Shown here: one piece after another, positions 21,142-38,495 of the stretch
How positions within the stretch are numbered: position 1 is the first letter of the stretch
How the letters are laid out: every line of letters starts with the position of its first letter
From: Nocardiopsis lucentensis DSM 44048
GTDB taxonomy: Bacteria > Actinomycetota > Actinomycetes > Streptosporangiales > Streptosporangiaceae
Assembly: GCF_000341125.1 (NCBI RefSeq)
Contig: NZ_ANBC01000186.1
Span: 1 to 38,782, forward strand
Direction: 5' to 3'
Length of the DNA stretch: 38,782 bases
Made by a program: the position numbers and the translations under genes
The notes under the pieces: generated by a model
What the model saw: the letters and a program-made list of their open reading frames with translations, nothing else
Told to the model about the DNA's origin: nothing
Databases searched by the model: none

Positions 21142-21214
21142 GGGGCTATGGCGCAGTTGGTAGCGCGCCTCCATGGCATGGAGGAGGTCTGGGGTTCGAA
21201 TCCCCATAGCTCCA
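21142..21214 (+). tRNA. tRNA-Ala (anticodon GGC), copy 1
   Basis: A 73-nt cloverleaf: acceptor GGGGCTA/TAGCTCC (one G-U pair), D-arm GCGC/GCGC, anticodon stem CCTCC/GGAGG with loop ATGGCAT (anticodon GGC), and T-arm TGGGG/CCCCA with loop TTCGAAT. The discriminator is A and the CCA is not encoded. It follows the phosphatase gene by 83 bp. Confidence 0.97.
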
Positions 21215-21469
21215 CTCGATTCCGAGACGATCCTGCTCGCGCGTGACCGCGCTCGCCGGGTCGTCTCGTCGTTTCTTCTGGGGGACGACCCCCAGACCCC
21301 CGATGCGGGGCTTCGCCCCGCGGGTTCGAGTGACGTCCCGTCAGGTCCACGGACTCAGGACGACCCTGCTCGGGGGCCTTCGGCCGCCTCGCCGGGTCGT
21401 CCGTCGTGTTTGCCGGGGGGACGACCCCCCGAACCCCCCGGTGTGCCGCTCGGCCTTCGGCCGTCGCGT
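21215..21469 (+). repeat. Structured GC-rich repeat array after tRNA-Ala copy 1
   Basis: Two full units and one degenerate unit. Unit A (21224-21267): outer arm GAGACGATCC, TGCTCG, inner hairpin CGCG-tgac-CGCG, CTCGCC, outer arm GGGTCGTCTC; then a T-rich tract, hairpin GGGGG-ACGA-CCCCC (21280-21293) and GCGGGGC-TTC-GCCCCGC (21305-21321). Unit B (21358-21402): arms GGACGACCC/GGGTCGTCC around inner GGCC-TTC-GGCC, again followed by TCGTGTTT and GGGGGG-ACGA-CCCCCC (21415-21430). A remnant with CGGCCTTCGGCCG lies at 21450-21462. The array runs to the end of the convergent GH13 gene and probably terminates transcription from both sides. Confidence 0.85.
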
Positions 21470-23128: not shown

Positions 23129-23461
23129 GAGTTCCCCCTGTGGTCGATTGTGCGTCGGGTCAGACCGCGCGTTCCCCTCACGGCCGCGATGGAGCGCCGG
23201 AGGATGATCCGGGCGGGCGGCCCCGCCAGGAGCGAACCTCGCGGACCTGACAGGCGAGCGTGTCGCGATCGGCCGACCCCTGGACGCGTTGACGGACCCG
23301 CCGGGCGACATCACGCGTGCTCGCGGGCCTGTTGGACATGCGGACCACGTTAGAGAACGATGAGGGTGACGGCACTGTTTCCTTCCGGAGAGCCTCACGG
23401 TTGATCCACGACCGGCTCGACACCGCGCGCCCGTCTCCGGCCGGCGCGAAAGGAGAGCGCC
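23129..23461. promoter_or_regulatory. Divergent control region between the GH13 gene and the sugar importer
   Basis: 333 bp without a convincing gene. The notable element is CGTT-agag-AACG (23348-23359), a short palindrome about 100 bp before the binding-protein ATG, which could be a sugar-regulator operator. AAAGGAGAG lies just before the binding-protein ATG. I could not identify confident -35/-10 boxes. Confidence 0.4.
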
Positions 23462-24748: not shown

Positions 24749-24752
24749 GGCC

Positions 24753-25652
24753 ATGACCACGACCACGAACGTCCGCATGCGACAGGGCTTGGGAGAACGG
24801 GCGATGGGGTGGGTGTTCCTCACCCCGTCGTTCGCCTTCATGGCCGTGATCGCGCTCTTCCCGGTCCTCTACGCGATCGGGATCAGCCTGTACCGGATCC
24901 GCGGGTTCCGGCGCGAGCCCGTAGGCCTCGACAACTACCTCCGTGTGCTCAGCGACTCCGGCTTCTACAACGCCGTGGGCAACACGCTGGTGTTCACCGT
25001 GACGTCGGTGGCGCTGGAGTTCGCCATCGGGATGGCGTTCGCCTTGATCATGCACCAGGCGTTCGTTGGCCGGGGCCTGACCCGGGCGGTCATCCTGGTG
25101 CCCTGGGTGATCCCCACCGCGGTCGCCGCCCAGGTGTGGCGGTACATGTTCGATCGCAACCCGGGCTTCGTGAACGCGGTGCTCGGCACCGACATCAACT
25201 GGCTGCGGGACCCCACCTGGACCATGGTCGCCATCATCAGTGCCGACGTGTGGAAGACCGCGCCGTTCGTGGCGCTGCTGCTCCTGGCCGGTCTCCAGAC
25301 CATCCCGAAGGACTACTACGAGGCGGCCAAGGTCGATGGAGCGGGCGCGGTCCAGCGGTTCTCGCACATCACCCTGCCGCTGCTGCGCCCGGCGATCGTC
25401 GTCGCACTGCTGTTCCGGACGGTGGACGCGCTGCGCATGTTCGACTTCGCGTACGTGTTCGCCGGGTACTCCAACTCGGTCGCGACCCTGTCGGTGTACG
25501 CGCAGCGGTTCCTGGTCGCTGACCCGAAACCGGGGTACGCCAACGCGCTGTCCACGGTGACGTTCGTCGTCGTCATGCTCGTCGGACTGGCCTTCATCAG
25601 CCGGATGGGCCGCCACATGGTGGGCGACGTGGCACGGAAGGAGAGGCGATGA
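24753..25652 (+). CDS. Sugar ABC transporter permease (MalF-like)
   Basis: A 299-aa inner-membrane permease with about six membrane segments, from FLTPSFAFMAVIALFPVLYAI to VTFVVVMLVGLAFI. The cytoplasmic EAA loop that contacts the ATPase reads YYEAAKVDGAGAVQRFSHI. It follows the binding protein by 4 bp and overlaps the second permease by 4 bp, so the three are one operon. Confidence 0.93.
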   Translation: MTTTTNVRMRQGLGERAMGWVFLTPSFAFMAVIALFPVLYAIGISLYRIRGFRREPVGLDNYLRVLSDSGFYNAVGNTLVFTVTSVALEFAIGMAFALIMHQAFVGRGLTRAVILVPWVIPTAVAAQVWRYMFDRNPGFVNAVLGTDINWLRDPTWTMVAIISADVWKTAPFVALLLLAGLQTIPKDYYEAAKVDGAGAVQRFSHITLPLLRPAIVVALLFRTVDALRMFDFAYVFAGYSNSVATLSVYAQRFLVADPKPGYANALSTVTFVVVMLVGLAFISRMGRHMVGDVARKERR

Positions 25653-26554
25653 CGGGCCGGACGCGGACGGCGGCCCCGACCCGGCCGGGGACCGCGCGCC
25701 GTCGGGGGACGCCCCCGGCGGCGGTCAACGCGCTCAAGCCGCTGGGGCTGCTCCTGGTGTTGGGCTGGTGCCTGTTCCCGTTCCTGTGGATGGCGATGAC
25801 CAGCCTGCGTACGGGATCGGTGGCGCTGACCGACCCGAACATCCTCCAGGGGCCGTTCGACCTGGACAACTACCGGCAGATCATCGGCCAGGGCTTCCAC
25901 TTCGCGCTGCGCAACTCGCTGATCGTGGCCTCGGTGACGACGGTGGTCTGCGTCCCGGTGGCCTCCCTGGCGGGGTACGCGCTGGCCCGGTTGCCGTTGG
26001 CGGGCAAGTTCGTGATCCTGGCGGTGACTCTGGTCGCGACGCTGTTCCCACCGGTCGCCCTGGTCAACCCGCTGTACCAGATGTACCTGGAACTCAACCA
26101 GTGGACGGGGATCAACCTGCTCAACACGTACACGGGCATGGTGATCCCCTACGTCGCGCTGACCCTGCCACTGTCCATCTTCATCCTCGCCACGTTCTTC
26201 TCGGGCATCCCGAAGGAGATCGAGGAGTCGGCCAAGGTGGACGGCGCCACGCCGTTCCAGGCCTTCCTACGGGTGGTCGCGCCGCTGGCCGCCCCCGGCG
26301 TGGGGGCGGCGGCGATCCTCACCTTCGTCTACGCCACCAACGAGTTCCTGCTGGCCTTCTCCTTCGCCCCGAACGACCTCAACGTGCAGACCGTCCCGGT
26401 GTTCGTGGGCACCTTCGAGAGGGTCGGCTACGAGAACCCGATCGGGCAGATCATGGCGGCCTCGGTCCTGGTCTCGATCCCGCTCATCGTCTTCGCCCTG
26501 CTTCTGCAACGCCGGATCGTGGCGGGCCTGACCTCGGGGGCCGTCAAGGGGTGA
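25649..26554 (+). CDS. Sugar ABC transporter permease (MalG-like)
   Basis: A 301-aa partner permease with an Arg-rich cytoplasmic N-terminus, six membrane segments and the EAA loop IEESAKVDGATPFQAFLRV. Starts within the stop of the MalF-like gene (ATGA). No ATP-binding subunit gene follows: the next gene is a convergent exporter only 7 bp away. As in streptomycetes, a shared ATPase of the MsiK type is presumably supplied from elsewhere. Confidence 0.93.
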   Translation: MTGRTRTAAPTRPGTARRRGTPPAAVNALKPLGLLLVLGWCLFPFLWMAMTSLRTGSVALTDPNILQGPFDLDNYRQIIGQGFHFALRNSLIVASVTTVVCVPVASLAGYALARLPLAGKFVILAVTLVATLFPPVALVNPLYQMYLELNQWTGINLLNTYTGMVIPYVALTLPLSIFILATFFSGIPKEIEESAKVDGATPFQAFLRVVAPLAAPGVGAAAILTFVYATNEFLLAFSFAPNDLNVQTVPVFVGTFERVGYENPIGQIMAASVLVSIPLIVFALLLQRRIVAGLTSGAVKG

Positions 26555-26561
26555 ACGGAAG

Positions 26562-28406
26562 TCACCGCGCGGGTGAGGCCTCGGGAACCTCGGGCCCGTC
26601 CTCGGTGACACCGCCGATGCGCAGCGCCGCCACCAGCTCCCGGTACAGCGCGTCCCGCTCCAACAGGTCCCGGTGGGTGCCTCTCGCGCGCACCCGCCCC
26701 TCCTCCATGACGATGATGCGATCGGCGCCGATCACCGTGGACAGGCGGTGCGCGATGGTCACCACCGCGGCCCGCTCGGCGTGGCGGCGCACGCTTTCGG
26801 TGACGGCGGCCTCGGTGATCGCGTCCACCTGGGATGTCGCCTCGTCGAGCAGCAGCACGTCCGCCGAGCACAACAGGGCGCGGGCGAGCGCGACCCGCTG
26901 GCGCTCGCCCCCGGAGAACGAGGTCGCGTCGACGGGGGTGTCCAGTCCGTCGGCCAAGGCGTCCACCCGGTCCGCGAGCCGCACCTCACGCAGGACCCGG
27001 CCGATGTCCGCCTCGTTCGCGTCCGGTCGGCCGAACACCAGGTTCTCCCGCAGAGTTCCAGGCACCACGGGTGTGTCCTGTTCCACGTACGCGAACCGCT
27101 CGCGCACCCGGGCCGGGCTCAGCTCCCGGTAGGGGAGGCCGTCCAGCAGGATCCGGCCACCCTCCGGTTCCAGGAAGCGCAGGAGGAGGGAGAACACGGT
27201 GGTCTTTCCCGCCCCCGACGGGCCGACGATCGCGGTGTGTCCGCGCCGCGGCACGGTGATGTCCACCGAGTCGAGGGCCGCCTTCGTGCCGGGCGCGTAC
27301 CTCGCGGTGACCCCGCGCAGCTCCAGCAGGACGTCGTCGGAGTCTCCGGAGGGGGAGACGACGGCGTCCGGCGTGCCCGCCGCACCGGGGTCCGCCTCCG
27401 GTTCGAGCGGGATCCGCGCCACCTCGCGGATCCGTCTCGCGGCGGCGACGCCCGACTGGAGGTCCGTCACGCTCTGGGAGAGCTCCGAGACCGGACCCAT
27501 CAGGGTGAAGGCGTAGAGCAGGAAGGCGACCAGGGTGGAGACCTCGATCGTTCCCGCGCCGACGCGCACGGCGCCCAACCCGAGGATGGCGATGATGGCG
27601 AGCTGCACCCCGCTGAAGGCGATCGTCATGGCGACGGCCTGATGCCGCACCGCGCGGACGCTGTGCTCGGCCGACTCCTGGGCGTCGCGCAGGATCCGGT
27701 CGCCGAGTCGCTCCTCCGCCCGGCTGACCTTGACCGTGCGCATGGCGCGCAGGGCGCCCTCCAGGACACCGCCCATGGAACCGAGCGAGGCCTGGGCGCG
27801 CTCCTGGTGCCGGGCGATCGCCGGCATCAGGGTCATGAAGAGCACCGACACGACGACGACCGCGACGACCGCGGTGCCCAGCAGGACCAGGTCGAGCAGG
27901 GCCATCATGACGAGTGTGCCGACCAGCAGGACGGTGCCGTTGACGAGGCTGACCACGCTGTGGCCGACGGCTTTGTTGAGGAGCACGGTGTCGGAGGTGA
28001 CACGGGTGACCAGCTCGCCGAGCGGTCGCTTGTTCAGCGACAGGATCGCCGCGCGGAAGTAGCGCTGGACGATCGAGGTCCGGGCGTCCAGGACGATCCG
28101 CTCGGACATCGTGCCCAGCAGGATCCAGTGCCACAGACCCAGGACCGCCCCAGCCGCGAACAGGCCGAGCAGGAGCGTGACGGGCGCGCCGAGCCCACCC
28201 CCCTCGGTGACGGTGTCCAGGACCAGCTTGATGATCATCGGGCTGGCCAGTTCCAGGGCCGAGCCGAAGAGGGCCAGGACCAGGCCGAGGAGGAGGGTGC
28301 CCCGGTGCGGGCGCACGAACGACCACAGCACGCGTAACTGGGCGAATCGGGGCTCGCTCTCGTCCGAGGATGAACGGGCGACAGTGTCCGGTGATTGATC
28401 ATCCAT
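26562..28406 (-). CDS. ABC exporter, fused permease-ATPase half-transporter
   Basis: A 614-aa type IV exporter (MsbA/LmrA-like): six membrane helices in residues 1-320, then an ATPase with Walker A GPSGAGKTT (about 393-401), a Q-loop region FAYVEQDTPVV, signature FSGGERQRVALARALL (about 494), Walker B VLLLDEATS and H-loop TIAHRLS. A single polypeptide would work as a homodimer exporting a drug, lipid or peptide. It is divergent from a TetR gene, and a shared palindrome lies over its promoter, which points to ligand-induced efflux. Promoter elements on the minus strand: TTGACG (28443-28438) and CCTAAT (28419-28414), 18 bp apart. Confidence 0.93.
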   Translation of the reverse strand: MDDQSPDTVARSSSDESEPRFAQLRVLWSFVRPHRGTLLLGLVLALFGSALELASPMIIKLVLDTVTEGGGLGAPVTLLLGLFAAGAVLGLWHWILLGTMSERIVLDARTSIVQRYFRAAILSLNKRPLGELVTRVTSDTVLLNKAVGHSVVSLVNGTVLLVGTLVMMALLDLVLLGTAVVAVVVVSVLFMTLMPAIARHQERAQASLGSMGGVLEGALRAMRTVKVSRAEERLGDRILRDAQESAEHSVRAVRHQAVAMTIAFSGVQLAIIAILGLGAVRVGAGTIEVSTLVAFLLYAFTLMGPVSELSQSVTDLQSGVAAARRIREVARIPLEPEADPGAAGTPDAVVSPSGDSDDVLLELRGVTARYAPGTKAALDSVDITVPRRGHTAIVGPSGAGKTTVFSLLLRFLEPEGGRILLDGLPYRELSPARVRERFAYVEQDTPVVPGTLRENLVFGRPDANEADIGRVLREVRLADRVDALADGLDTPVDATSFSGGERQRVALARALLCSADVLLLDEATSQVDAITEAAVTESVRRHAERAAVVTIAHRLSTVIGADRIIVMEEGRVRARGTHRDLLERDALYRELVAALRIGGVTEDGPEVPEASPAR

Positions 28407-28409
28407 GAC

Positions 28410-28437
28410 TTGAATTAGGTCATGACTGACCTATTAT
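28410..28437 (+). promoter_or_regulatory. tetR promoter with embedded palindromic operator
   Basis: TTGAAT (28410-28415), a 16-bp spacer and TATTAT (28432-28437). A perfect inverted repeat TAGGTCA-tgac-TGACCTA (28416-28433) fills the spacer and also overlaps the -10 and spacer of the divergent exporter promoter. One TetR dimer pair bound here would shut both genes. Confidence 0.75.
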
Positions 28438-28464
28438 CGTCAACTGATTATCTGCCGGTCTAGG

Positions 28465-29064
28465 ATGGAGGCCATGGCGAACAGGGCTTCTGCGATGGAT
28501 GAGACGAGGACACGCGCGCGCACCCGCCGGGCGATCCTCGAAGCGGCGGTCGAGGTCCTGGGGGAGAACTCGGCGGCGCCGCTGTCGGATGTGGCCAGAA
28601 CCGCCGGGGTGGCGCGGAGCACGCTCCAGCGCTACTTCCCCGAGCGCTCGGACCTCATCTGTGCCCTGGGGGAATACGTCGAGGAGCTGGTCAACGAGGC
28701 CACCGAGCGGGCGCGCACCACCGACGGCACCGCCATCGAGGCCTTCTCCCGCCTGGTCGCGGAGTACTTCGGGGTGCGCAAGGCGGTCATGGCCGCCTTC
28801 GGGGATCACGACGCCACACAGCAGAGTCCGCAGGAGGAGTGGAACAGTCCCGCGGACCTGGCCTTGTACGAGCTCGTCGAACGAGGGCACGAGGACGGCA
28901 CCATCGACCCCAGGATCACGCCGCTGTGGGCGCAGCAGCTGCTGTGGTCGGGCCTGTACGCCGGGGCCACCTACGTCTGGGTCGCCAGGGTGCCCGCCTT
29001 CGAGGCACTCAACATGTGCCTGCTGTCCCTGGTCAAGGCGGTGTCCACCGAACCGCGGAAGTGA
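28465..29064 (+). CDS. TetR-family repressor of the divergent exporter
   Basis: A 199-aa regulator. The N-terminal helix-turn-helix is ILEAAVEVLGENSAAPLSDVA with recognition helix GVARSTLQRYFPERSDLI; the remainder is an all-helical ligand domain (e.g. AFSRLVAEYFGVRKAVMAAF and LWAQQLLWSGLYAGATYVW). Possible starts are ATG 28465, 28474 and 28495; I use the first because transcription should begin near 28444, but the second has GGAGG two bases upstream. Operator position predicts autorepression plus repression of the exporter. Confidence 0.92.
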   Translation: MEAMANRASAMDETRTRARTRRAILEAAVEVLGENSAAPLSDVARTAGVARSTLQRYFPERSDLICALGEYVEELVNEATERARTTDGTAIEAFSRLVAEYFGVRKAVMAAFGDHDATQQSPQEEWNSPADLALYELVERGHEDGTIDPRITPLWAQQLLWSGLYAGATYVWVARVPAFEALNMCLLSLVKAVSTEPRK

Positions 29065-29078
29065 ACCGGGCGGTGGAG

Positions 29079-29104
29079 CCCGCCGCGCGGGAGGGCGCGG
29101 CGGG
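29079..29104. terminator. Bidirectional terminator between tetR and the GroES-like gene
   Basis: CCCGCCGCGC (29079-29088) and GCGCGGCGGG (29095-29104) form a perfect 10-bp stem with a 6-nt loop in the 47-bp convergent gap. Confidence 0.7.
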
Positions 29105-29111
29105 CGACGGA

Positions 29112-29435
29112 TCAGAGGTAGAGGCCGGTTCCCCGCTCGGGGGATTCGTTGGCGACGGCGTGCACGTCGCGTTCGCGCAGGATGACGTAACGTTCGCCGT
29201 TCAGTTCGACCTCGCCCTGGTCCTCGGGGTCGAACAGCACGCGATCGCCGGTCTTGACGTGACGGGCGCCCGTTCCGGCGCCGCAGACCTCACCCCAGGC
29301 GAGCCTCGTCGCCAGCTTCACCGTGTCCGGAATGACCAGACCGGCGCTGCTGCGCCGCTCGCTCTTGTCCGGGACCGCCCTCACCAACAGGCGGTCATGG
29401 AGCATCTGGATTTCAAGCTTTGATTCGGGCACCAT
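29112..29435 (-). CDS. GroES-family (Cpn10-like) protein, no adjacent groEL
   Basis: A 107-aa Cpn10-fold protein: MLHDRLLVRAV at the first strand, a mobile-loop-like region KSERRSSAGLVIPDTVK, then VKTGDRVLFDPEDQGEVELNGERYVILRERDVHAV. It differs from housekeeping GroES in the acidic DPEDQGEVEL segment and the C-terminal extension (ANESPERGTGLYL), like the extra GroES-type proteins found singly in actinomycetes. No CIRCE element is visible upstream. The ATG at 29435 is chosen; MLHDRLL at 29405 is an alternative. Confidence 0.85.
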   Translation of the reverse strand: MVPESKLEIQMLHDRLLVRAVPDKSERRSSAGLVIPDTVKLATRLAWGEVCGAGTGARHVKTGDRVLFDPEDQGEVELNGERYVILRERDVHAVANESPERGTGLYL

Positions 29436-29558
29436 TCCAGGGTATTCGGCCCCGCCCACGGGTCCTCCCCGCCCAGGGCGGAGGCCGATGGCACGACCCA
29501 CTCACGAACTCCGGTAGAGTGTTCCCAACGCCGAGCGGGGGAACCGCCCGGCACACCA

Positions 29559-29631
29559 GGGGCTATGGCGCAGTTGGTAGCGCGCCTCCATGGCATGGAG
29601 GAGGTCTGGGGTTCGAATCCCCATAGCTCCA
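29559..29631 (+). tRNA. tRNA-Ala (anticodon GGC), copy 2
   Basis: Identical in all 73 positions to the copy at 21142, with its own TAGAGT box at 29515-29520. CCA is not encoded. Confidence 0.97.
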
Positions 29632-30025
29632 CTCGACTCCGAGACGATCCTGCTCGCGCGTGACCGCGCTCGCCGGGTCGTCTCGTCGTTTCTTCTGGGG
29701 GACGACCCCCAGACCCCCGATGCGGGGCTTCGCCCCGCGGGTTCGAGTGACGTCCCGTCAGGTCCACGGACTCAGGACGACCCTGCTCGGGGGCCTTCGG
29801 CCGCCTCGCCGGGTCGTCCGTCGTGTTTACCGGGGGGGAGACTCCCCGAACCCCCCGAGGTACCCCCTGCGGTTGAGGTCGCGCAGGTCGACGAGGTGGG
29901 CGGGGCACTCTCTCGCAACGCGGGGCTTCGCCCCACGGGTTGTCGTTGGCTTGCGTAAGGTCCGCTCTGGACCGCTTGGGAACCCTCGGCCGACGCCGGG
30001 GGCCGGGAAGCGCGCCGAACGGGTT
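29632..30025 (+). repeat. Structured GC-rich repeat array after tRNA-Ala copy 2
   Basis: From the tRNA through about 29827 the sequence repeats 21142-21410 with one substitution (GACTCC for GATTCC). It contains unit A (29641-29684) and unit B (29775-29819), then GGGGA-gac-TCCCC in place of the usual GGGGG-ACGA-CCCCC. From about 29850 it follows the copy-3 array instead (AACGCGGGGCTTCGCCCC, then GGGTTGT). The last 100 bases are unrelated to either. The array reaches the end of the convergent amidohydrolase gene. No gene is seen. Confidence 0.85.
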
Positions 30026-31120
30026 TCACGCAGCACCCCCTCCACCGTCGGAGAGGGCGTCGCCGCCGGCCGTCGCCAGGCTTCGGACCGCCGCGCGCTC
30101 GGTCGCACGGGCGGTGAGGCGTTCCCAGTTGCGGTGGGCGATGTCGGCCTTCTGCCCGTCGGTGAAGGGCGCCCCCTCCAGGAAGGAGCGTGCGGCGCCG
30201 CCGCTGGTGTCGACGTAGGGGAAGCCGCCAGGACGGAAGCCGTAGGTGAAGGGGTAGTCGGTGGAGTACAGCATCCGGTCGGTGCCCATGACCTCGGCGG
30301 TCCAGCGCAGGTAGCGGGGGCTGTTGGTGCCGCTGCCGGCGACCCAGAAGTTCTGTGTGAAGTAGTCGGCGAGCGGCCGCTGAAGGCCACCGGCCTCGGC
30401 GAAGAATCCGATGTGGTCGAGGTAGAACGTGACGACCTCGCCCCAATGTCCGGCGATCACCTGTAGATCGGGGAACCGGTCGAAGACGCCCGAGAAGATC
30501 ATCCGCAGGTACTGCACGCCCAGGTCGTAATACCAGCCGATCGCCGCCCCGGCCAGCGGCGTGCCGATCTGGCCGATGTTGGAGTAGTAGGCGTCGATCA
30601 CCGGCTGGACCGGCATTTGCGGGTGGAAGTGCAGTGGCACACCCAGCCGCTCGGCGGTGGCGTAGAGCTCGTCGTTGCTCGGGTGGTCGGCCAGTCTGTC
30701 TCCGGTGCGGCCGTACAGCATCGCGCCGGGGAAACCCAGTTCGCCCACCGCGCGTTCCAGCTCGGCCGCGGCCGCGGCCGGTGACTGGGTGGGGATCGCG
30801 GCGAACGCCTGGAAGCGGTCGGGGCGCGAGGCGACGATCTCCGCGAGCTGGTCGTTGGCCTCACGGGCCACGGCGATCGCGTCGGTCTCCGGCAGGTCCT
30901 GCACACCCGGCGACGACAGGGACAGCACGGCGACGTCGATGCCCTGGTCGTCCATGTGGGCCAGCCGCCGCTCACCGACCTCGCGCAGGTTCTCGGCGAT
31001 CGGGCCGTCCCCGAAGCCGCGGGCGGGGATCTGCGGCGATCCCGCCCGCCGGTACGCCTCATAGACGGCGGGTACGACGACGGTCTCTTCCACTCCGATG
31101 ATCCGCAGGCGGTCGGGCAT
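30026..31120 (-). CDS. Amidohydrolase-2 family protein (gamma-resorcylate decarboxylase/ACMSD-like)
   Basis: A 364-aa TIM-barrel protein resembling metal-dependent nonoxidative decarboxylases. Landmarks: VEETV (Glu11), LHFHPQMP (His164, His166), VIAGHWGE (His225) and MLYSTDYPF (Asp288). Compared with gamma-resorcylate decarboxylase (metal ligands Glu8, His10, His164, Asp287 as I recall), the second ligand His appears to be Thr13. The start is ATG 31120 with AGGAG 9-13 bases upstream; a GTG at 31135 would only add five residues. Three near-palindromic 13-mers precede it. A hydroxybenzoate decarboxylase or a related C-C hydrolase is likely; the substrate is unknown. Confidence 0.85.
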   Translation of the reverse strand: MPDRLRIIGVEETVVVPAVYEAYRRAGSPQIPARGFGDGPIAENLREVGERRLAHMDDQGIDVAVLSLSSPGVQDLPETDAIAVAREANDQLAEIVASRPDRFQAFAAIPTQSPAAAAAELERAVGELGFPGAMLYGRTGDRLADHPSNDELYATAERLGVPLHFHPQMPVQPVIDAYYSNIGQIGTPLAGAAIGWYYDLGVQYLRMIFSGVFDRFPDLQVIAGHWGEVVTFYLDHIGFFAEAGGLQRPLADYFTQNFWVAGSGTNSPRYLRWTAEVMGTDRMLYSTDYPFTYGFRPGGFPYVDTSGGAARSFLEGAPFTDGQKADIAHRNWERLTARATERAAVRSLATAGGDALSDGGGGAA

Positions 31121-31165
31121 GGCGGTGCTCCTCACACGCGTGTTTCCAATGGAATGACATAAATG

Positions 31166-31247
31166 TTATCGCTGATAATTACACTGTCAACACTATTGCG
31201 TTAACATCGATAAAAAAGTGATGCTTGGATGGCGTTATCGTTGATAC
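31166..31247. promoter_or_regulatory. Three phased copies of a TTATCGnTGATAA operator
   Basis: TTATCGCTGATAA (31166-31178), TTAACATCGATAA (31201-31213, i.e. TTATCGATGTTAA on the minus strand) and TTATCGTTGATAC (31235-31247). Centres are 35 and 34 bp apart in an AT-rich island just upstream of the amidohydrolase. The motif looks like a binding site for a dimeric regulator. Confidence 0.7.
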
Positions 31248-31584
31248 ATGCCTGTTGACCCGAGCCCCCGGCGGCCAAGCACGTCGCCCCCGACCGGCAG
31301 GGTCCGATCAAGGAACCGCGCGTCGAGGAGGACCTCGCGGCCCGGATCATCCACGCCGCCGCGCGCCGCGCCGCCCGGCCGGAACGTCCTCAGCCGCGCC
31401 GAACGGCGACTGCTGACGGAATGGCTGGGTCGGCTGTCGTCCGCATGGCCGCTTCGCGGACGGGCGGGGCGCCGGTCGGCGCGGGTGCCGGGCGCGCGGC
31501 GGTCGGCGACGACTCCGTTTCGGGCCGGATCATCGGGCTCGTTGTGCCTGGCGCCCCGGCTTCGGGGCCGGCTCGGAGGGGAAC
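31248..31584. other. Non-coding stretch with a possible regulator remnant
   Basis: No intact gene. One frame reads IKEPRVEEDLAARIIHAAAR (from about 31310), and a second frame shortly after reads LSRAERRLLTEWLGRL (from about 31390), which resembles the C-terminal helix of MarR-type regulators. These may be remnants of a frameshifted regulator gene divergent from the amidohydrolase, but GC-rich open frames are misleading and the evidence is thin. Confidence 0.25.
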
Positions 31585-32613
31585 CTACGCCGGGGGAGCG
31601 GTCGAGGCGCGGATCACGAGGTTCGGTGAGAGGACCTCGTGCCGGTCCTCACTCCGCCCCGACAGGCGCTCCACCACCATCTCCACCGCCAGGCCCCCCA
31701 TCACCAGGCGAGGCTGGTCCACACTGGTCAGGCGGGGGCGTACGGTCTCGGCGAGGGCGGTGTTGTCGTACCCCACGACCGACAGCTCCTCCGGGACGGC
31801 GATCCCCTCCGCGTGGGCCTGGTCCAGGACCGCGAGCGCGGCCAGGTCGTTGACGGTGAAGACCCCCGTCGGCCGGGCGGCCAGCAGGGCCCGGGCGGCG
31901 CGCTCCCGCCCGCGCGGGTCGTCGCCGGTCTCCCACACGGCCACGTGCCTCTCCGCCCCGAGGGAGACCATGGCCTCCCGATACCCCTCACGACGGGCGC
32001 GCGAGGCCGGGCGCCGTGATCCCGACAGGTGGGCGATCCGCTCATGCCCGAGCCCGGCCAGGTGCCGGACCGCCGCCTCCGCGCCCGCGCGGTCGTCGTT
32101 GGCGATGGTGTCCACACCCCGGGTGAAACGGTCGGGGCGTCCCACCATCACGACCGGGGCGCGGCGCGCCGCGTCGGCCAGCGCGTCCGGCTCGACCCAG
32201 GAACTCACCACGACCACGCCGTCCACGTTCAGCTGCAACAGCGCGTCGAGCTGGTGTGTCAGCCGTGCCCGGTCGCGTCGTCCGTGCGCCAGGAGGACGG
32301 TGAGGCCCCTGGTCTCCGCCGCTTCCTCCACCCCCGCCACGACCTCGGTGTGGTAGGGGTTCGCCAGGTCGGTGAGGAGCACCCCGAGGATCATCGTGCG
32401 CCCCTGTACCAGGCCCCGGGCAAGGGCGTTGGAGCGGTATCCGAGCCGTTCCGCGGCCGCCAGGATGCGGGCGCTGGTCGCGGCGCTCACCCCGTCGTCC
32501 CCGCGCAGAGCCAGGGACACCAGCGACTTGGACACCCCCGCGGCGGCGGCGACGTCCACGATCGTGGGACGTCCGCCGCGCCGGGTCCGCCCGCCTCCGC
32601 CTGTGGTCGTCAC
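31585..32613 (-). CDS. LacI-family transcriptional regulator
   Basis: A 342-aa repressor with an N-terminal helix-turn-helix (TIVDVAAAAGVSKSLVSLAL, hinge SNALARGLVQGRT) and a periplasmic-binding-protein-like effector domain (GVLLTDLANPYHTEVVAGV, DGVVVVSSWV, VGYDNTALAETVRPRLTSV). Start is GTG 32613. It is divergent from the tandem-HAD/ECF operon; a 24-bp perfect palindrome with central CG, the classical LacI-type operator form, lies 38 bp upstream. It therefore very likely controls itself and the ECF operon, sensing a sugar, nucleoside or related ligand. Confidence 0.94.
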   Translation of the reverse strand: MTTTGGGGRTRRGGRPTIVDVAAAAGVSKSLVSLALRGDDGVSAATSARILAAAERLGYRSNALARGLVQGRTMILGVLLTDLANPYHTEVVAGVEEAAETRGLTVLLAHGRRDRARLTHQLDALLQLNVDGVVVVSSWVEPDALADAARRAPVVMVGRPDRFTRGVDTIANDDRAGAEAAVRHLAGLGHERIAHLSGSRRPASRARREGYREAMVSLGAERHVAVWETGDDPRGRERAARALLAARPTGVFTVNDLAALAVLDQAHAEGIAVPEELSVVGYDNTALAETVRPRLTSVDQPRLVMGGLAVEMVVERLSGRSEDRHEVLSPNLVIRASTAPPA

Positions 32614-32651
32614 CCCACCATTGTGTCGTGTTCGGGGCGGGACGGCCCATT

Positions 32652-32675
32652 CGAATCTGGAACGTTCCAGATTCG
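32652..32675. promoter_or_regulatory. 24-bp perfect palindrome, probable LacI-type operator
   Basis: Half-site CGAATCTGGAAC followed directly by its exact complement, centre between 32663 and 32664 (AACGTT core with central CG as in LacI-family operators). It lies between the regulator gene and the tandem-HAD gene. Confidence 0.85.
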
Positions 32676-32767
32676 TTTCCCCCGGGGTCATCCACAGGAT
32701 CCGCGGTGTCGGTGGCGCGTGCCTAGGGTCGCTGGTGAACGCGGCCCCGACCCGACAGGAGACGTTC

Positions 32768-34399
32768 GTGGACAACCCTCCCCCGCCCCTGCTCCTCCGC
32801 CCGGAGGCGCTCCTCCTCGACTTCGGCGGAGTGGTCTTCCAGACCCGCAAGCGCCCCGACGGCCGTGCCGCCGTCGTCCGCCACCTGCACGGTGTCCTGG
32901 CCCGCGCCGGACACGACGTGGCGGTCGAGCTGCTGCGTGGATCACTCGACGCCGGGCTCGCCGCGCTCAAGGACTGGAAGAACGCCGCCGGACGGCGCCG
33001 CACCCCGGAGGAACTCGACCACCGTACGATCTGGGTCGACTTCCTCGCCTCCGACCTGGACGCGCGGGCACGGGAGGTCCTGGCGGGCGACGCCGCCGGG
33101 CTCCTGGCCGCCATGTCCCCCCTGCTGTCCGAACACGAGGTGCGGCCGGGCGTCCGCGACCTCCTCGCCGCCGCCCGCGACCTCGGGGTGCGCGTCGGCA
33201 TGGTCTCCAACGCCCACTCCGGCCGCTCCCACCGGGCCCTCGTCCGCGAGGCGGGCCTGGAGGAGTACTTCGGCGTGCAGGTCTACTCCGACGAGGTCGG
33301 TGTCCGCAAACCCCACCCCGAGATGATCCGCCTCGCCGCCAGGGCGCTCGGCACGGCCCCCGAACGCTGCTGGTATGTCGGCGACACCCAGGACCGGGAC
33401 GTGGTCGCCGGGCGGCGCGCGGGTGTGGGCGCGGTGGTCCTCACCCGCCACCACCACACCGACACCCCGCCCTACCCCGTACGTGACCGGGCCGACGCCG
33501 TCCTGGACACCCCGGAGGGCCTGGTGTCCCCCCTTCGCAACAGCCGCCCCGTGTCCGCTGTCCCCTCCCCGGCGCCCGACCACCGTCCTCCCGCCGGGAG
33601 ACGTCCCCCCGGGGCCCTCCTGCTGGACCAGGGCGGGGTCGTCGTCCTGTCCACACCGACCCCGGACGCCTGGAACTCCTTCGCCGGGAGCGTCGCCGAA
33701 CGGCTCGGCCGAGTCGGGTACGCGACCACCCCCGACGCCGTCGCCGCCCTCGTCCGCGAGGGCCGTGACCGCTATCGGGCCTGGAAGGCCGGTCACCCGG
33801 ACGCGGGGCCGATCCCCGAGATCACCCCGCGGGAGTTCTGGCACGACATGGTCGGGCGGGACCTGCCCGAGCGCGCCCGTGCCCTGCTCCTGGCCGAGTC
33901 GGCCCAGCTCACCCTGGAGTACGCCCGGTCCAAGAGCCGGGCGGCGCCGCGCCACGGGGTCCGCGAGGTCCTGGAGTTCTGCGCCGACCGCGCGATCCCG
34001 GTCGCGATCGTCTCCAACACCGTGTGCGGCCGGGCGGCGCGCGAGGAGCTCGACCGCTTCGGTCTCGACCACCTCGTCGGCGCCCACGTCTACTCCGACG
34101 AACTCGGCCGTCGCAAACCCGACCCCGCGACCGTCCGCGCCGCCGTCACCGCCCTCGGTGTGGACCCCGCCGACTGCTGGTTCGTCGGGGACAAGCCCTG
34201 GCGCGACGTCGCGGCGGCCCACGCGGCCGGGGTCGGCACGGCCGTGGTCGTGCGCGGCGGGTCGGCCGACGACGACGAGATCGACGCCGCGCTCACCGGA
34301 CCGCCGGAGCGACGGCCCCAACACGTCATCGACCAGATGCACGACCTCCTCGGCCTGTGGGCCGACACACCCCTCCCCCTCACCCCCTCCAGCACCTGA
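32768..34399 (+). CDS. Tandem HAD-superfamily hydrolase (two HAD domains in one chain)
   Basis: A 543-aa fusion of two complete HAD domains. Domain 1 (about 13-235): nucleophile Asp18 in LLLDFGGVV, motif II VGMVSNAHSG, Lys in VRKPHPEM, and acid motif YVGDTQDRDV. Domain 2 (about 282-510): Asp287 in LLLDQGGVV, IVSNTVCG, RRKPDPATV and FVGDKPWRDV. Both have Gly at the usual second Asp (DxG rather than DxD), as in many subfamily-IA enzymes with a DFGGV start. An Arg/Pro-rich linker joins them. Start GTG 32768 has AGGAG upstream. It precedes the ECF transporter by 10 bp, so it probably dephosphorylates or processes the imported substrate; this is inference. Confidence 0.9.
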   Translation: MDNPPPPLLLRPEALLLDFGGVVFQTRKRPDGRAAVVRHLHGVLARAGHDVAVELLRGSLDAGLAALKDWKNAAGRRRTPEELDHRTIWVDFLASDLDARAREVLAGDAAGLLAAMSPLLSEHEVRPGVRDLLAAARDLGVRVGMVSNAHSGRSHRALVREAGLEEYFGVQVYSDEVGVRKPHPEMIRLAARALGTAPERCWYVGDTQDRDVVAGRRAGVGAVVLTRHHHTDTPPYPVRDRADAVLDTPEGLVSPLRNSRPVSAVPSPAPDHRPPAGRRPPGALLLDQGGVVVLSTPTPDAWNSFAGSVAERLGRVGYATTPDAVAALVREGRDRYRAWKAGHPDAGPIPEITPREFWHDMVGRDLPERARALLLAESAQLTLEYARSKSRAAPRHGVREVLEFCADRAIPVAIVSNTVCGRAAREELDRFGLDHLVGAHVYSDELGRRKPDPATVRAAVTALGVDPADCWFVGDKPWRDVAAAHAAGVGTAVVVRGGSADDDEIDAALTGPPERRPQHVIDQMHDLLGLWADTPLPLTPSST

Positions 34400-34409
34400 A
34401 AGGCGCGTC

Positions 34410-35342
34410 ATGGCCGACTCCTCCCGAACCGCCGCGATCCCCGACCTCCGGGGCCGCCCCGGCCCGCCGGAACTCAACTCCGGTCAGAAGCTCATGGTCT
34501 TCGTTCTCTCGATGACGCTGTTCGGACTGGCGAACATCGTCACGGAGGTCCTCCCCGAGATCCAGGTCGGCCCCGTCGAACTCGGGGTGTCCTACCTGAC
34601 CTTCGTTCCCGTGCTCATGGTCGCCCTCTTCCACCCGCTGTACGCGGCCCTGGGAGCGCCCCTCGGCGAGATCGTCTTCGCCGACCTCCTCATGGGTGAC
34701 TTCTCCGGGATCGGGGAACTGGAGGGCTACCTCCAGATGTTCCTGGCCCTCTACGTCGCCGGTTGCCTGGTCCGCGACCCGGGCCGCAGGTGGCAGCTCG
34801 CCCTGGCCAGCGTGGTCACGGTCGTCGTGGACAAGATGCTGTCCGCCACCGTGGACGTCGCCAAGGTGTGGGTGGGGGTCGAGGAGGCCGACTCCGTGCC
34901 CGGGCTGCCCGAGTCGGTCCTCGTCCTGGAGGGAGTCGACTTCGCGGTCGCCCTCGTCATCAGCGGCGTCCTGTTCGGTGTCCTTCCGGCCATGGCGCTG
35001 GGGCCCCGGCTGCACGGGAGGATCGAGCCGCTGCTCGGCCTGGCGCCGCGCGACGCCCGGCACCGGATCCCGCTCGCCGAACGCGGGACGGGTGCGTTCC
35101 TCCTGCTCGCCGTCTTCCTGTCCTTCGTGGCGATGATCGCGGCGTTCACCAATGAGATCGTGGACAACTTCGGCGTGTGGGAACCCGATTTCGTCGAGCT
35201 CTACGGAGCCCGCTTCCTGTGGGTCGGCGCGTCCGCGGCGCTCATCGTGCTCGTCGGGCTGGTCGTCTCGGTCCGGTTCGTCCTGCGGTCGCGCGGACGG
35301 CGCGCCGCCCAGGACCGCCAGGTGGGGGAGCGGCGGCCATGA
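34410..35342 (+). CDS. ECF transporter substrate-binding membrane protein (S component), substrate unknown
   Basis: A 310-aa integral membrane protein with about seven hydrophobic segments, e.g. LMVFVLSMTLFGLANIV, YLTFVPVLMVALFHPLYAAL, LQMFLALYVAGCLV, FAVALVISGVLFGVLPAMAL, LLLAVFLSFVAMIAAF and WVGASAALIVLVGLVVSVRF. It lies immediately upstream of genes for the ECF ATPase and T subunits and overlaps the ATPase gene by 4 bp, which identifies it as the substrate-specific S component. It is longer than usual S components (about 170-220 aa) because of a polar loop near residues 150-170 and two extra C-terminal segments. I recognise no vitamin-specific motif, so the substrate is open. Confidence 0.75.
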   Translation: MADSSRTAAIPDLRGRPGPPELNSGQKLMVFVLSMTLFGLANIVTEVLPEIQVGPVELGVSYLTFVPVLMVALFHPLYAALGAPLGEIVFADLLMGDFSGIGELEGYLQMFLALYVAGCLVRDPGRRWQLALASVVTVVVDKMLSATVDVAKVWVGVEEADSVPGLPESVLVLEGVDFAVALVISGVLFGVLPAMALGPRLHGRIEPLLGLAPRDARHRIPLAERGTGAFLLLAVFLSFVAMIAAFTNEIVDNFGVWEPDFVELYGARFLWVGASAALIVLVGLVVSVRFVLRSRGRRAAQDRQVGERRP

Positions 35343-37099
35343 CCTCCACCGAAGCCGCCACGGGGCCGGGGCCCGCCGACGCGCCCGCGGTCGAGGTGTC
35401 GGACCTGGCCTTCCGCTACCCCGGCGCCGACCACGACACCCTGCGCGGAGTGGACCTGAGGATCGAGCGCGGCGACTTCGTCGCGGTGGTCGGCGGTAAC
35501 GGGTCCGGCAAGACCACCCTCTGCAAGACGTTCAACGGACTGGTCCCGCACTACTGGTCGGGAACCTTCGAGGGCCGGGTCAGGGTCCTGGGCCGGGACA
35601 CCCGTGAGGTGTCCGTCGGCGCGCTGTCCCACCTCGTCGGATACGTCTACCAGGACTTCGGCAACCAACTGGTGCGGCCCACCGTACGCGACGAGGTCGC
35701 CTTCGGCCCCGTCAACTTCGGCCTGCCCGACCATCGTGAACGCACCGACGAGGCCATGGAGCTGCTCGGCGTCGCCCACCTCGCGGACCGGTTCACCTGG
35801 CAACTGTCCGGAGGCCAGCAGCACCTGGTCGCGCTGGCCAGCGTGATGGCGCTGCGCCCGGGCGTGGTCGTGGTGGACGAGCCGGTCGCCGAACTCGACC
35901 CGGCCCGGGCGGCGCGGATCTACGAGGTGCTCGAGGACCTCAACCGCCGCCTGGGCACCACGGTCGTCGTCATCGAGCACCACGCGGAGTACGTGGCCCG
36001 GTACGCCCGTTCCGTGGTGCTCATGGCCGACGGCGCGCCGGTCTGGCACCTGCCGACCCGTGCGGCGATGGACCGGGCCGAGGAACTGGAACGCCACGGG
36101 ATTCCCGCGCCCCAGGTGGTACGGGTGGCGCGCGGACTCGATCCGGCCGCCCCACCCCCGCTGACCGTGACCGAGGCCGCCGACCGGCTGCGAAGCCGAC
36201 ACCCGCACGCCCTTCCGCCGGACCGCCGCGCCGTGCGGGTGGCGGGGTCGGAGCCCACGGGGGAGACGGTCGCGGAACTGGCCGGAGTACGGCACGGCTA
36301 CCGCGGCGTCGGCGGAGACCTGTCCGTCGTCCTGGACGGCCTCGACCTCACCCTGCGCGACGGGGAGCGCGTCGCCCTCGTGGGTGGCAACGGGGCGGGC
36401 AAGTCCACGCTGCTGCGCCTGCTCACCGGGTTGAAGGTGCCCAGGGAGGGGACCGTGCGAGTCGGCGGAACCGACACCCGGACGGTACGGCCGAACGCTC
36501 TCGCCGACCGGGTCTGCCACCTCTACCAGCGCCCCGAGCAGATGTTCCTCAAGGACAGCGTGTACGAGGACGTGGCCATGTTCCCGAGGGGGCGCGGCCG
36601 AACCGACACCGACACCCTGGTCGCCGAGGTCCTCGACCGAGTCGGGCTGTCCGGTCTCGCCGGGCGCGACGGCCGTCTGCTCTCCGGCGGCCAGCAGCGC
36701 AGGGCGACGCTGGCCGTCGGGCTGGCGACGAGCCCCGCCCTGCTCCTGCTGGACGAGCCCACGTCCAGCCTGGACACCGCCAGCCGTGACGCGGTCATCG
36801 CCATGTTGGACGCGCTCTCCGGCACCATTCGGTGCACGGTGGTGGCCACCCACGACATGCATCTGGTCGCCGAGTGGGCTGGTCGTGTCCTCGTGCTCGA
36901 CGGGGGACGGGTCGCGGCCGACACCGATCCGGCCGGCCTGTTCGCGGACACCGCGCTCATGGAGTCCGTGGGGCTGGTGGCGCCCGAGGTCACGCGGTTG
37001 GGGCTGGCCCTGGGCGTGGAGCCGCCGCCGTTGTCGGTGCCGGAACTCGTGAGCAGGCTGGGTGGGATCCCGGCGGAGGAGGTGGGGGAGCGTGCGTAG
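35339..37099 (+). CDS. ECF transporter ATPase, fused A-A' (two ABC domains)
   Basis: A 586-aa cytoplasmic ATPase with two ABC cassettes in one chain, equivalent to EcfA1 plus EcfA2. Domain 1: Walker A GGNGSGKTT (about 52), YQDFGNQLVRPTVRDEVAFGP-type Q-loop, signature LSGGQQHLVALASV, Walker B VVVVDEPVAELD, H-loop IEHHAEYV. Domain 2: GGNGAGKST (about 348), LYQRPEQMFLKDSV, LSGGQQRRATLAVG, LLLLDEPTSSLD, ATHDMHLV. Both sites look catalytically complete. It drives import with the T and S components encoded on either side. Confidence 0.95.
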   Translation: MTSTEAATGPGPADAPAVEVSDLAFRYPGADHDTLRGVDLRIERGDFVAVVGGNGSGKTTLCKTFNGLVPHYWSGTFEGRVRVLGRDTREVSVGALSHLVGYVYQDFGNQLVRPTVRDEVAFGPVNFGLPDHRERTDEAMELLGVAHLADRFTWQLSGGQQHLVALASVMALRPGVVVVDEPVAELDPARAARIYEVLEDLNRRLGTTVVVIEHHAEYVARYARSVVLMADGAPVWHLPTRAAMDRAEELERHGIPAPQVVRVARGLDPAAPPPLTVTEAADRLRSRHPHALPPDRRAVRVAGSEPTGETVAELAGVRHGYRGVGGDLSVVLDGLDLTLRDGERVALVGGNGAGKSTLLRLLTGLKVPREGTVRVGGTDTRTVRPNALADRVCHLYQRPEQMFLKDSVYEDVAMFPRGRGRTDTDTLVAEVLDRVGLSGLAGRDGRLLSGGQQRRATLAVGLATSPALLLLDEPTSSLDTASRDAVIAMLDALSGTIRCTVVATHDMHLVAEWAGRVLVLDGGRVAADTDPAGLFADTALMESVGLVAPEVTRLGLALGVEPPPLSVPELVSRLGGIPAEEVGERA

Positions 37100-37922
37100 G
37101 GAACGCGACCGGCTCTCGGTGGAGTGGGTCAAACTCGAACTGCTCCGGACCGCCTACGCCACCCGTGGCGGGCTGCTGGCCGGGAGAGACCCCCGGGTCG
37201 TGATCGGCTGGTACCTGATCCTCGCGGTGGTTCCGTGGTTCACCCACAACGTCACCGTGCTCGCCGGGCTGTTCGTCGTGTGCGCCGCGGCCGTCGTGCT
37301 CAGCAGGGTCGGTCCGCTGATCCTGGGACTGTTCGTCATCGGTTTCGTCCTGGAGGGCCTGTACGTCCTGTTCGCCGCGTGGCTGTTCGGCGGTGACGCG
37401 AGTACCGTCCTGGCGATGGCCGAGTTCACCCTGAAGCTGGCGACCGTGAGCCTGGCCAGCATGGCTGCGTTCGTCTCGCTCGACCCGGAGAAGCTCTCCG
37501 ACGCCCTGCTGAGCCTGCACGCGCCCGCCATGGTCAGCTTCGGAGTCAGCTACGGATACCGGATGCTGCCCGTCCTCATGGAGGAGTTCCACACCGTGGT
37601 CGACGGGCACCGGCTGCGCGCCGCGCCCCTGGCCTCGAAGGGGTTCCTCGGCTGGCGGGTGGCCGTCCGTACGGCCACGACGCTCGTGGCCGCGTTCTAC
37701 CCGCTCATGCTCAACACGGCCAAGCGGACGCGGACCACGGTGGAGGCCCTGGAGACCCGGGGGTTCACCTACGCGGCCGAGCACCCCGACGGCAGACGGA
37801 TCCGCCTCGCAGCGCTGAGGGCGGACCGCTGGGACGCGTTGTTCCTGGGGGCCACGCTGGCCCTCGTGGCCGTCTGCTTCACCGTCGGCCGGGCCTTCCC
37901 CCTCCTCGGCGGAGCCGTCTGA
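37092..37922 (+). CDS. ECF transporter transmembrane coupling protein (T component)
   Basis: A 276-aa membrane protein starting at GTG 37092, overlapping the ATPase gene by 8 bp with GGAGGAGG upstream. About five hydrophobic segments (VVIGWYLILAVVPWF, VTVLAGLFVVCAAAVVL, LILGLFVIGFVLEGLYVLF, LKLATVSLASMAAFVSL, ALFLGATLALVAVCF) and the coupling-helix motif ALETRGF identify it as EcfT, which links the ATPase to the S component. A strong terminator follows, closing the HAD-S-AA'-T operon. Confidence 0.93.
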   Translation: MRRERDRLSVEWVKLELLRTAYATRGGLLAGRDPRVVIGWYLILAVVPWFTHNVTVLAGLFVVCAAAVVLSRVGPLILGLFVIGFVLEGLYVLFAAWLFGGDASTVLAMAEFTLKLATVSLASMAAFVSLDPEKLSDALLSLHAPAMVSFGVSYGYRMLPVLMEEFHTVVDGHRLRAAPLASKGFLGWRVAVRTATTLVAAFYPLMLNTAKRTRTTVEALETRGFTYAAEHPDGRRIRLAALRADRWDALFLGATLALVAVCFTVGRAFPLLGGAV

Positions 37923-37939
37923 ACACGAACGTCCACACC

Positions 37940-37974
37940 GCGGGCGCCCCGGGAACCCGGGACGGGGCGCCCGC
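37940..37974 (+). terminator. Terminator of the HAD-ECF operon
   Basis: GCGGGCGCCCC (37940-37950) pairs with GGGGCGCCCGC (37964-37974); the 13-nt loop can fold further. Confidence 0.75.
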
Positions 37975-38032
37975 CGTCGGTCGGTCATTCCACCCCGCGT
38001 CGTCCGGTAGACTCTTCTTCGTCGCTTCGCAC

Positions 38033-38105
38033 GGGGCTATGGCGCAGTTGGTAGCGCGCCTCCATGGCATGGAGGAGGTCTGGGGTTCGAATCCCCATAG
38101 CTCCA
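38033..38105 (+). tRNA. tRNA-Ala (anticodon GGC), copy 3
   Basis: Identical to the copies at 21142 and 29559. A TAGACT box at 38008-38013 is a likely -10; no CCA is encoded. Confidence 0.97.
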
Positions 38106-38495
38106 CGGACTCGGGACGACCCTGCTCGGGGGCCTTCGGCCGCCTCGCCGGGTCGTCCTTCGTGTTTTCCGGGGGGAGACCCCCCCGAACCCCCCGGGGT
38201 ACCCCCCTGTGGCCGGGGTCGCGGTGATCGGTGGGGTGGGCGGGGCTCTCTCTCGCAACGCGGGGCTTTGCCCCGGGGGTTGTAGTTGGGTCGCCCAGGG
38301 TCCACGAGTTGCGGGCTGCTGCTCGCCGGTCTTCGACCGGCTCGCCGCGGCCCGCATCTGTTTTTCGGGGGGACGACCCCCGGACCCCCGGTGTGCCGGG
38401 TTCCTGATCCGAAAACCTCGTGTGCGAGGGAACCGGCTCGCCGCCATTCGCGTCCAAACAGACAAATCCCCAAAACCGACGCACACGGGGGTGCA
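38106..38495 (+). repeat. Structured GC-rich repeat array after tRNA-Ala copy 3
   Basis: Begins directly with unit B (38114-38158), lacking unit A. It continues TTCGTGTTTT, a G-run/C-run hairpin, and AACGCGGGGCTTTGCCCC. A further unit D follows (38311-38355): arms GCGGGCTGC/GCGGCCCGC around TGCTCG, inner CCGGTC-ttc-GACCGG and CTCGCC, then CTGTTTTTC and GGGGGG-ACGA-CCCCC. Both arms of unit D differ from unit B yet still pair. The last 100 bases (38400-38495) are unique, locally AT-richer, and presumably carry the promoter of the next gene. Confidence 0.85.

Follow-up and report, generated by a model that had tools for sequence, protein, structure and literature searches.

Putative miniature mobile elements with a terminator-like hairpin end behind tRNA and tmRNA genes of Nocardiopsis and related Streptosporangiaceae

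What kind of structured repeat lies directly behind the tRNA-Ala(GGC) genes of Nocardiopsis lucentensis DSM 44048, and what might it do there? The question was raised by a preliminary description of a 38,782-nucleotide stretch of this genome (contig NZ_ANBC01000186.1; hereafter, the window), in which three tRNA-Ala(GGC) genes are each followed by two units of the repeat. That description spoke in its title of five occurrences; the count is six units, as in its own list, and the positions given for all six were confirmed in the window sequence (Table 1). Sequence comparison within and between genomes indicates that the unit is the left end of elements bounded by CCAC. These are probably miniature mobile elements that target the ends of tRNA and tmRNA genes and whose left-end hairpin would serve as a replacement intrinsic terminator. 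No description of these elements was found in the open-access literature searched.

Table 1. Features of the three tRNA-Ala(GGC) loci of the window
Feature	Position	Strand	Basis and remarks
tRNA-Ala(GGC) copy 1	21142..21215	+	ARAGORN; gene end CTCCAC; insertion point after 21215
A-type element, 135 nt	21216..21350	+	Leader, unit, T-rich tract, hairpins 2 and 3, diverged right end with CCAC at 21347-21350
Unit A1, imperfect hairpin	21223..21269	+	Covariance model, 60.4 bits
Hairpin 2 of A1, GGGGG-ACGA-CCCCC	21280..21293	+	Guanidine-II look-alike, sub-threshold
Unit B1	21356..21404	+	Covariance model, 76.2 bits; left end of a B-type element starting at 21351
tRNA-Ala(GGC) copy 2	29559..29632	+	ARAGORN
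A-type element, 135 nt	29633..29767	+	CCAC at 29764-29767; right end diverged like that of copy 1
Unit A2	29640..29686	+	Covariance model
B-type element, 198 nt	29768..29965	+	Right end ...AAGGTCCGC (degenerate CCAC)
Unit B2	29773..29821	+	Covariance model
tRNA-Ala(GGC) copy 3	38033..38106	+	ARAGORN
B-type element, 199 nt	38107..38305	+	Between the CCAC of the tRNA and CCAC at 38302-38305
Unit B3	38112..38160	+	Covariance model
Unit C3	38309..38357	+	67.2 bits; 3-nt leader GAG after the preceding CCAC
T-rich tract and hairpin 2 of C3 (GGGGGGACGACCCCC)	38358..38381	+

No right end was seen for the B-type element that starts at 21351 behind copy 1, and a scan of the window against Rfam at gathering score returned tRNAs and no other family. 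The trio of genes is spaced 8.4 kb apart (window 21142-38106), and an alpha-amylase, ABC transporters and an amidohydrolase were among the ten reading frames scanned. A tRNA-Ala(CGC) query gave four matches in 34 of 40 genus genomes, three of the four lying within a few tens of kilobases of one another where listed, and the trio is therefore probably old. Elsewhere in the same genome, seven tRNA-Gly(GCC) genes with a 136-nt spacing lie upstream of tRNA-Cys and tRNA-Val(GAC) (L035/L010).

The unit folds as an outer arm, a U-C mismatch, two G-C pairs, a 2x2 TC/TC internal loop and an inner stem. The three outer-arm pairs were quoted correctly at the outset, and each pairs throughout if U-G is allowed. 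TGCTCG and CTCGCC, both present in all six window units, had been taken for unpaired internal-loop segments, whereas part of each is itself paired, in the two G-C pairs. Similarly, the second hairpin had been given as GGGGG-ACGA-CCCCC; the ACGA loop is found in four of the six units, and those at 29773 and 38112 have AGA-type loops. Taken singly, three of the six window stretches of unit plus tail fold only modestly better than shuffled sequences (z-scores of -5.5, -2.5, -4.8, -1.6, -1.9, and -5.3).

Selection on structure, which the preliminary description had proposed, was borne out in a larger set of 76 non-redundant units, obtained from the 138 units described below after seven had been set aside by hand. 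The consensus structure was derived from the tested sequences themselves, which favours it, and with it 95.4% of cells pair, compared with a shuffle mean of 74.5; sliding the partners, a partial control, drops pairing to 35-52%. Cells changed on both sides number 249, against a shuffle mean of 73. Double changes occur at 12 of the 16 pairs, a count that is not above shuffles (110 of 500 reach 12), and on the other pairing measures none of the 500 shuffles reaches the observed value. Against this shuffle null, the covariation proposed from six units thus stands, in that pairing is kept despite changes. G-T and T-G pairs outnumber A-C and C-A pairs by 91 to 16, and the structure is therefore carried by the tRNA-sense strand. 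The same balance led to rejection of an opposite-strand reading, in which the complement would have tandem G-A mismatches; matches of the model on the reverse strand are near-palindrome echoes.

The boxes that had been described as invariant are variable across the family, TGCTCG being exact in 55 of the 76 units, CTCGCC in 29 and both in 25, while the U-C position reads U-C in 28, U-G in 22 and U-A in 18. What survives of the conserved internal loop is the 2x2 pyrimidine loop, which is exactly TC/TC in 48 of 76 units, is seldom pairable and, by eye, seems rare among the ordinary terminators behind tRNA genes in the relative G001. Its unpaired state in most units and the location of the structure on the tRNA-sense strand would suit an RNA set free from tRNA precursors to act in trans or to bind a protein, with contacts at TGCTCG and CTCGCC, as the preliminary description implied; a precedent is RtT RNA, which is released from tRNA operon transcripts (as related in the accessible part of PMC4986893). 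Such a role is nevertheless very unlikely: the boxes vary, many genes of the same types have no unit, and one and the same gene can carry different numbers of units and different arm types from one species to the next. A trans-acting contact accounts for the shared core less well than does common descent, as the end of a mobile element that was copied, with recognition of this end as a possible further factor.

Hairpin 2, GGGGACGACCCC, brings up a different regulatory RNA. A lenient Rfam search matched window 21277-21319 to Guanidine-II (mini-ykkC) with 27.6 bits (E 0.0011), and this stretch is a possible trap for automated riboswitch annotation. The score is below the gathering score of 32, of 91 tails that have a hairpin of this kind only 28 show the ACGA loop (19 have CGA, 18 AGA), and the site is downstream of a tRNA, not upstream of a protein gene. 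On the variable loops and low score the riboswitch was rejected, and it is hardly credible that these are Guanidine-II-like regulatory hairpins.

A covariance model built first from the six window units found 11 matches in the same genome at E <= 1.8e-7, six in the window and five outside, all behind tRNA or tmRNA genes: the outside matches are a pair 3' of tRNA-Val(TAC), a pair following a tRNA cluster whose last gene is tRNA-Val(GAC), and a single one that follows tmRNA. A short exact pattern was less useful in this genome, where its 45 matches were mostly due to chance (a backwards control gave 4 forward and 11 reverse); in named genomes it was found in four Nocardiopsis records and in Streptomonospora nanhaiensis 12A09. 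Further members in related genomes, on which the earlier proposal depended, were detected by the covariance model in 21 of 21 sampled Nocardiopsis and Streptomonospora genomes; when a later sample was searched under stricter filters (E <= 1e-4), at least one genus genome (G158) had no match. A second model matched 25 of 120 genomes in a family sample (E <= 0.001), 51 of 200 in an order sample (E <= 1e-4; all 51 belong to the family of the window) and 22 of 394 in a class sample (E <= 1e-5), where four of the 22 are from other families. Two of these four were inspected (L237, L239); they have no tRNA nearby and look like chance. Weak family matches without a tRNA (L214-L218) were likewise treated as chance.

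The position of the units was examined in at least 100 genus clusters, chosen by model match independently of tRNAs, all but eight of which were fetched. Keeping the best 150 of 176 model matches and removing overlapping reverse matches and one duplicate locus left 138 units, of which 130 have an RNA gene of the same strand no more than 600 nt upstream. The genes in question encode tRNA-Ala (GGC 48, CGC 11 and TGC 8 units), tRNA-Val (TAC 22, GAC 6), tmRNA (22) and tRNA-Leu (CAG 12, TAG 1). Of the eight units left out of this count, L081 and L129 do in fact follow a tRNA and had been scored on the wrong strand, L088 and L108 resemble chance matches, L117 is at a contig end, and L086, L122, and L140 are at insertions. 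At L140, a partial second unit is directly adjoined by what appears, by eye, to be the terminal part of an IS3-type transposase gene, an arrangement that would fit an insertion sequence having inserted into the unit.

First units, defined as those 12 nt or less behind a gene, follow a gene ending in YCCAC in all 86 cases, and they start between 3 nt inside and 10 nt past the annotated gene end. In the complete genome of G001, where 60 RNA genes were read, units are found at 5 of 16 genes ending in YCCAC versus 0 of 44 others (one-sided Fisher p = 8e-4), the tmRNA unit among the five being weak. Later units have YCCAC within 14 nt upstream in 13 of 44 cases and lack it in 31. In many arrays the units recur every 80-93 nt or so with no CCAC, a pattern accounted for by simple tandem duplication, and these short-period arrays are thus probably tandem duplications. 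The nearest neighbour of a unit in other genomes is behind the same type of RNA gene for 52% of units, compared with 21% by permutation, which suggests that much of the inheritance is vertical and that spread is slow.

Orthologous sites are empty in some genomes and occupied in others at tRNA-Val(GAC), tRNA-Ala(CGC) and tmRNA, as is characteristic of miniature elements, with the insertion point between the RNA 3' end and the old terminator. The empty tRNA-Val(GAC) site of G001 (L159, L160) reads ATCGCCCAC followed directly by CAGTATCACC..., and the occupied site of G002 (L091) reads ATCGCCCAC, then 135 nt ending in GGCCAC, then CAGCATCACC..., so that CCAC stands on both sides of the insert and the old trailer, with the same terminator stem as in G001, lies beyond it. 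The boundary repeat is no longer than CCAC at tRNA-Val(GAC) and tRNA-Val(TAC), where it was read exactly. At tRNA-Ala(CGC), read in 30 of 40 genomes, a unit is directly behind the gene in 6 of the 30 loci; the ordinary terminator is kept beyond the units in four of these six (G007, G013, G015, G019) and was not seen within 330 nt in G602 and G011. The tmRNA query gave one match per genome in 40 genus genomes, and in the best 30 loci the model matches directly behind the gene in 29, several of these matches being weak and some coming from loci that had contributed to the model; several of these loci, by eye, keep an older terminator further down. In other genera the unit model matches 3 of 28 tmRNA loci: the old terminator is directly 3' of tmRNA in L287, L288, L292, L294, and L296, and L286 has one unit and hairpin 2 between tmRNA and the old terminator. 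Within the window, the B element starts at the CCAC of the copy 3 tRNA, and behind copy 2 a 135-nt A element intervenes.

The elements are discrete repeated sequences with defined ends at different loci, and come in sizes of 134-138 nt, 194-199 nt and about 1.65 kb, the last with PIN and HTH genes. Among the 30 start-to-end stretches listed, eight belong to the A class, with lengths of 134-138 nt after correction of five stretches cut at a CCAC inside the leader, and 13 measure 194-199 nt. The others are 185, 207, 344 and 357 nt, together with five longer ones, three of which (563, 1227, 1341) probably start at a false match. A common 29-nt right end, GGGTTGTAGTTGGCTTGCCCAGGGTCCAC, was found with seven or fewer mismatches in 36 distinct contexts, 25 of which are then followed by another unit, and in none in a Markov control sequence of half the size; the right ends of the window A elements are more diverged and outside these 36. 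Hairpin 3, near the right end, shows compensatory changes too. In B elements the GGACT/GGTCC ends can pair, and relatives of about 1.65 kb share both ends, with no transposase recognised among the proteins scanned. The copy 2 B-type element is 94% identical over 205 positions (BLAST) to an element behind tRNA-Val(GAC) in the same genome; here a second element (212-415) aligns with a first (77-280), and the homology runs exactly from CCAC to the next CCAC. In several other pairs of elements the alignment continues for at least 20 nt into the tRNAs, whose sequences are alike.

These features bear on an account without any mobile element, in which an unusual terminator arose once behind a tRNA, spread by ectopic gene conversion and then underwent tandem duplication. 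Half of the units are nearest to a relative behind the same gene type in another genome, the short-period arrays look like plain tandem duplications, and tRNA-Ala copies 1 and 2 share 300 nt at 98%, the tRNA included, as conversion would give. Conversion sits poorly with many inserts of constant lengths and a common right end, and with an old terminator that is kept beyond the insert, not replaced, at tRNA-Val(GAC) and in four of the six occupied tRNA-Ala(CGC) loci. It also has to accommodate homology between a second and a first element that can run from CCAC to CCAC, although that of several others extends into the tRNAs. We regard this account as quite improbable.

Larger copies are exemplified by an element of 1635 nt in another genus (L345, reverse strand, 145-1779), which lies behind tRNA-Val(TAC) and has an ordinary-looking terminator beyond its right end, and by one of 1686 nt in G010; elements of about 1.6-1.7 kb were noted behind tRNA-Val and other loci (L345, L066/L122, L253, L248). 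Their genes are of three kinds, PIN_3-like, HTH_17 and double-HTH, those of L345 being recognised by eye because they resemble the ones scanned. The neighbouring PIN_3-like and HTH_17 genes likely form a toxin-antitoxin pair. The double-HTH protein (L345, L250, L349, L350) has about 100-145 aa and a resolvase-type HTH (PF02796), appears to start at the right-end CCAC, and showed no recognised catalytic domain and no phage match; relatives of 144 and 145 aa at two loci in other genera had no obvious catalytic domain and, by eye, no partner. A transposase, integrase or recombinase domain was found in none of six cargo proteins or fragments scanned (G002, G010, G145, G156); the full element of G196 was read as a list of open reading frames, separately from this domain scan.

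Most actinobacterial integrative elements enter tRNA 3' ends (according to the accessible text of PMC3218068), and the units might accordingly be scars of integrative elements, such as AICEs or prophages, each of which brought a tRNA tail and a terminator and then lost its genes. Displaced 3' fragments of tRNA or tmRNA are joined to units in L331, L207, and L213, and L277 has a second CACCTCCAC before the old tmRNA terminator. In addition, the right end of the window A elements resembles a tRNA-Val 3' end (14 of 2000 shuffles are as good), which slightly raises the standing of this account and slightly lowers that of the miniature-element reading. By contrast, the common right-end motif and the window B right end are no closer to tRNA-Ala or tRNA-Val ends than shuffles are (290 and 1282 of 2000 as good), elements decaying independently would not be expected to end up with two constant lengths and one common 29-nt right end at many loci, the boundary repeat at tRNA-Val(GAC) and tRNA-Val(TAC) is only CCAC, and the cargo proteins scanned had no integrase domain. 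As a general explanation, integration scars are therefore unlikely. The displaced tRNA fragments with units and the tRNA-Val-like A end show that ordinary integrative elements also land at these sites, and they may have carried units. In L331, the tRNA-Ala(CGC) gene of G016 has an ordinary terminator behind it, beyond which lies a displaced 3' tRNA fragment with a unit, an arrangement that is probably the far end of an ordinary integrative element.

The function of the unit is suggested by what follows it. In the T-rich tract 3' of the unit, A is at or below 6% at positions +1 to +12, T makes up 74, 64 and 80% at +3 to +5, and at least three T occur within the first 8 nt of 116 of 126 distinct units, compared with 11% of random 8-mers from the same loci. 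A hairpin with at least three U in 8 nt defines the 'HS-U-rich' class in Term-seq data from Streptomyces clavuligerus (PMC8269248, accessible part). The unit has the features of an intrinsic terminator, that is, a stable hairpin directly followed by a U-rich tract and located directly behind a gene, and behind most other tRNAs of G001 the same slot holds, by eye, ordinary, well-paired terminators. The preliminary description had held a plain terminator to be unlikely; position, T-tract and displaced older terminators point instead to a terminator, and the unit hairpin likely ends transcription in place of the displaced terminator of the gene.

In the miniature-element reading, elements mostly without genes, hosted by Nocardiopsis and related Streptosporangiaceae, would insert directly behind the YCCAC end of tRNA-Ala, -Val, and -Leu and tmRNA genes. 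A newcomer would separate the RNA from its original terminator, with CCAC flanking the insert at either end; its hairpin and U-rich tract would then be within about 10 nt of the gene and would end transcription instead of the displaced terminator, and older copies would be pushed downstream to form arrays. Mobility is well supported by the empty and occupied sites, and we infer that copies still move and that some enzyme moves them. Several observations weigh against this reading: CCAC is too short to explain target choice alone, 31 of the 44 later units lack YCCAC, inheritance is to a large extent vertical, no recombinase was recognised among the proteins scanned, and the tRNA-Val-like right end of the window A elements suits ordinary integration scars. 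More tentatively, it is conceivable that a putative enzyme uses two kinds of recombination or transposition site, the acceptor end of the tRNA (YCCAC and additional sequence) and the conserved imperfect hairpin, possibly as folded single strands, and stacks cassettes behind the tRNA, some with toxin-antitoxin genes, each newcomer supplying a working terminator and sparing the host RNA gene.

If the miniature-element reading is true, tRNA and tmRNA terminators across the genus have been replaced by a parasite that brings its own terminator, so that the tRNA is left unbroken. The sites would form a natural series, empty and occupied, for testing how stable RNA genes tolerate insertions, and a new question would be which enzyme reads the tRNA end YCCAC. 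The family would also be a clean case in which covariation reflects a mobile end and a terminator, not a riboswitch or sRNA; covariation alone should not be taken as a sign of regulatory RNA.

Among known systems, the intrinsic terminators of GC-rich actinobacteria share with the unit a stable GC-rich hairpin, at least three U in 8 nt and a location directly behind stable RNA genes. The unit differs from them in its mostly conserved 2x2 pyrimidine loop, in being shared between unrelated loci, and in belonging to an insertable element that has a right end and additional hairpins. REP and other palindrome-associated elements derive from IS200/IS605 transposons and have a GTAG tetranucleotide at the foot of the hairpin. 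They are similarly non-autonomous, form arrays and consist of an imperfect hairpin beside a fixed tetranucleotide, and insertion 3' of a short fixed target, as in IS200/IS605, would fit CCAC. The conserved tetranucleotide of the present family is CCAC, however, not the GTAG of REP/RAYT systems, and the family sits behind tRNA and tmRNA genes instead of being dispersed.

AICEs and other tRNA-targeting integrative elements resemble the present elements in inserting at tRNA or tmRNA 3' ends and displacing the old end or terminator. The present elements differ in measuring 134-199 nt or about 1.65 kb, in having only CCAC at both boundaries where these were read exactly, and in the lack of an integrase among their proteins scanned. 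Downstream of tyrT in E. coli, 178-bp repeats carry the 3' end of tRNA-Tyr. As with these repeats and RtT, tandem copies that include a portion of the tRNA 3' end lie behind a tRNA in the present family; the family differs in involving several tRNA types, many species and discrete inserted elements, and Rfam RtT had no match in the window. Integrons, finally, hold cassette arrays at one anchor site, with attC hairpins that have unpaired inner bases and with toxin-antitoxin cargo. The present family likewise has arrays with a single anchor, ends that are structured and keep unpaired inner bases, and probable toxin-antitoxin cargo, with the difference that its anchor is the 3' end of a tRNA.
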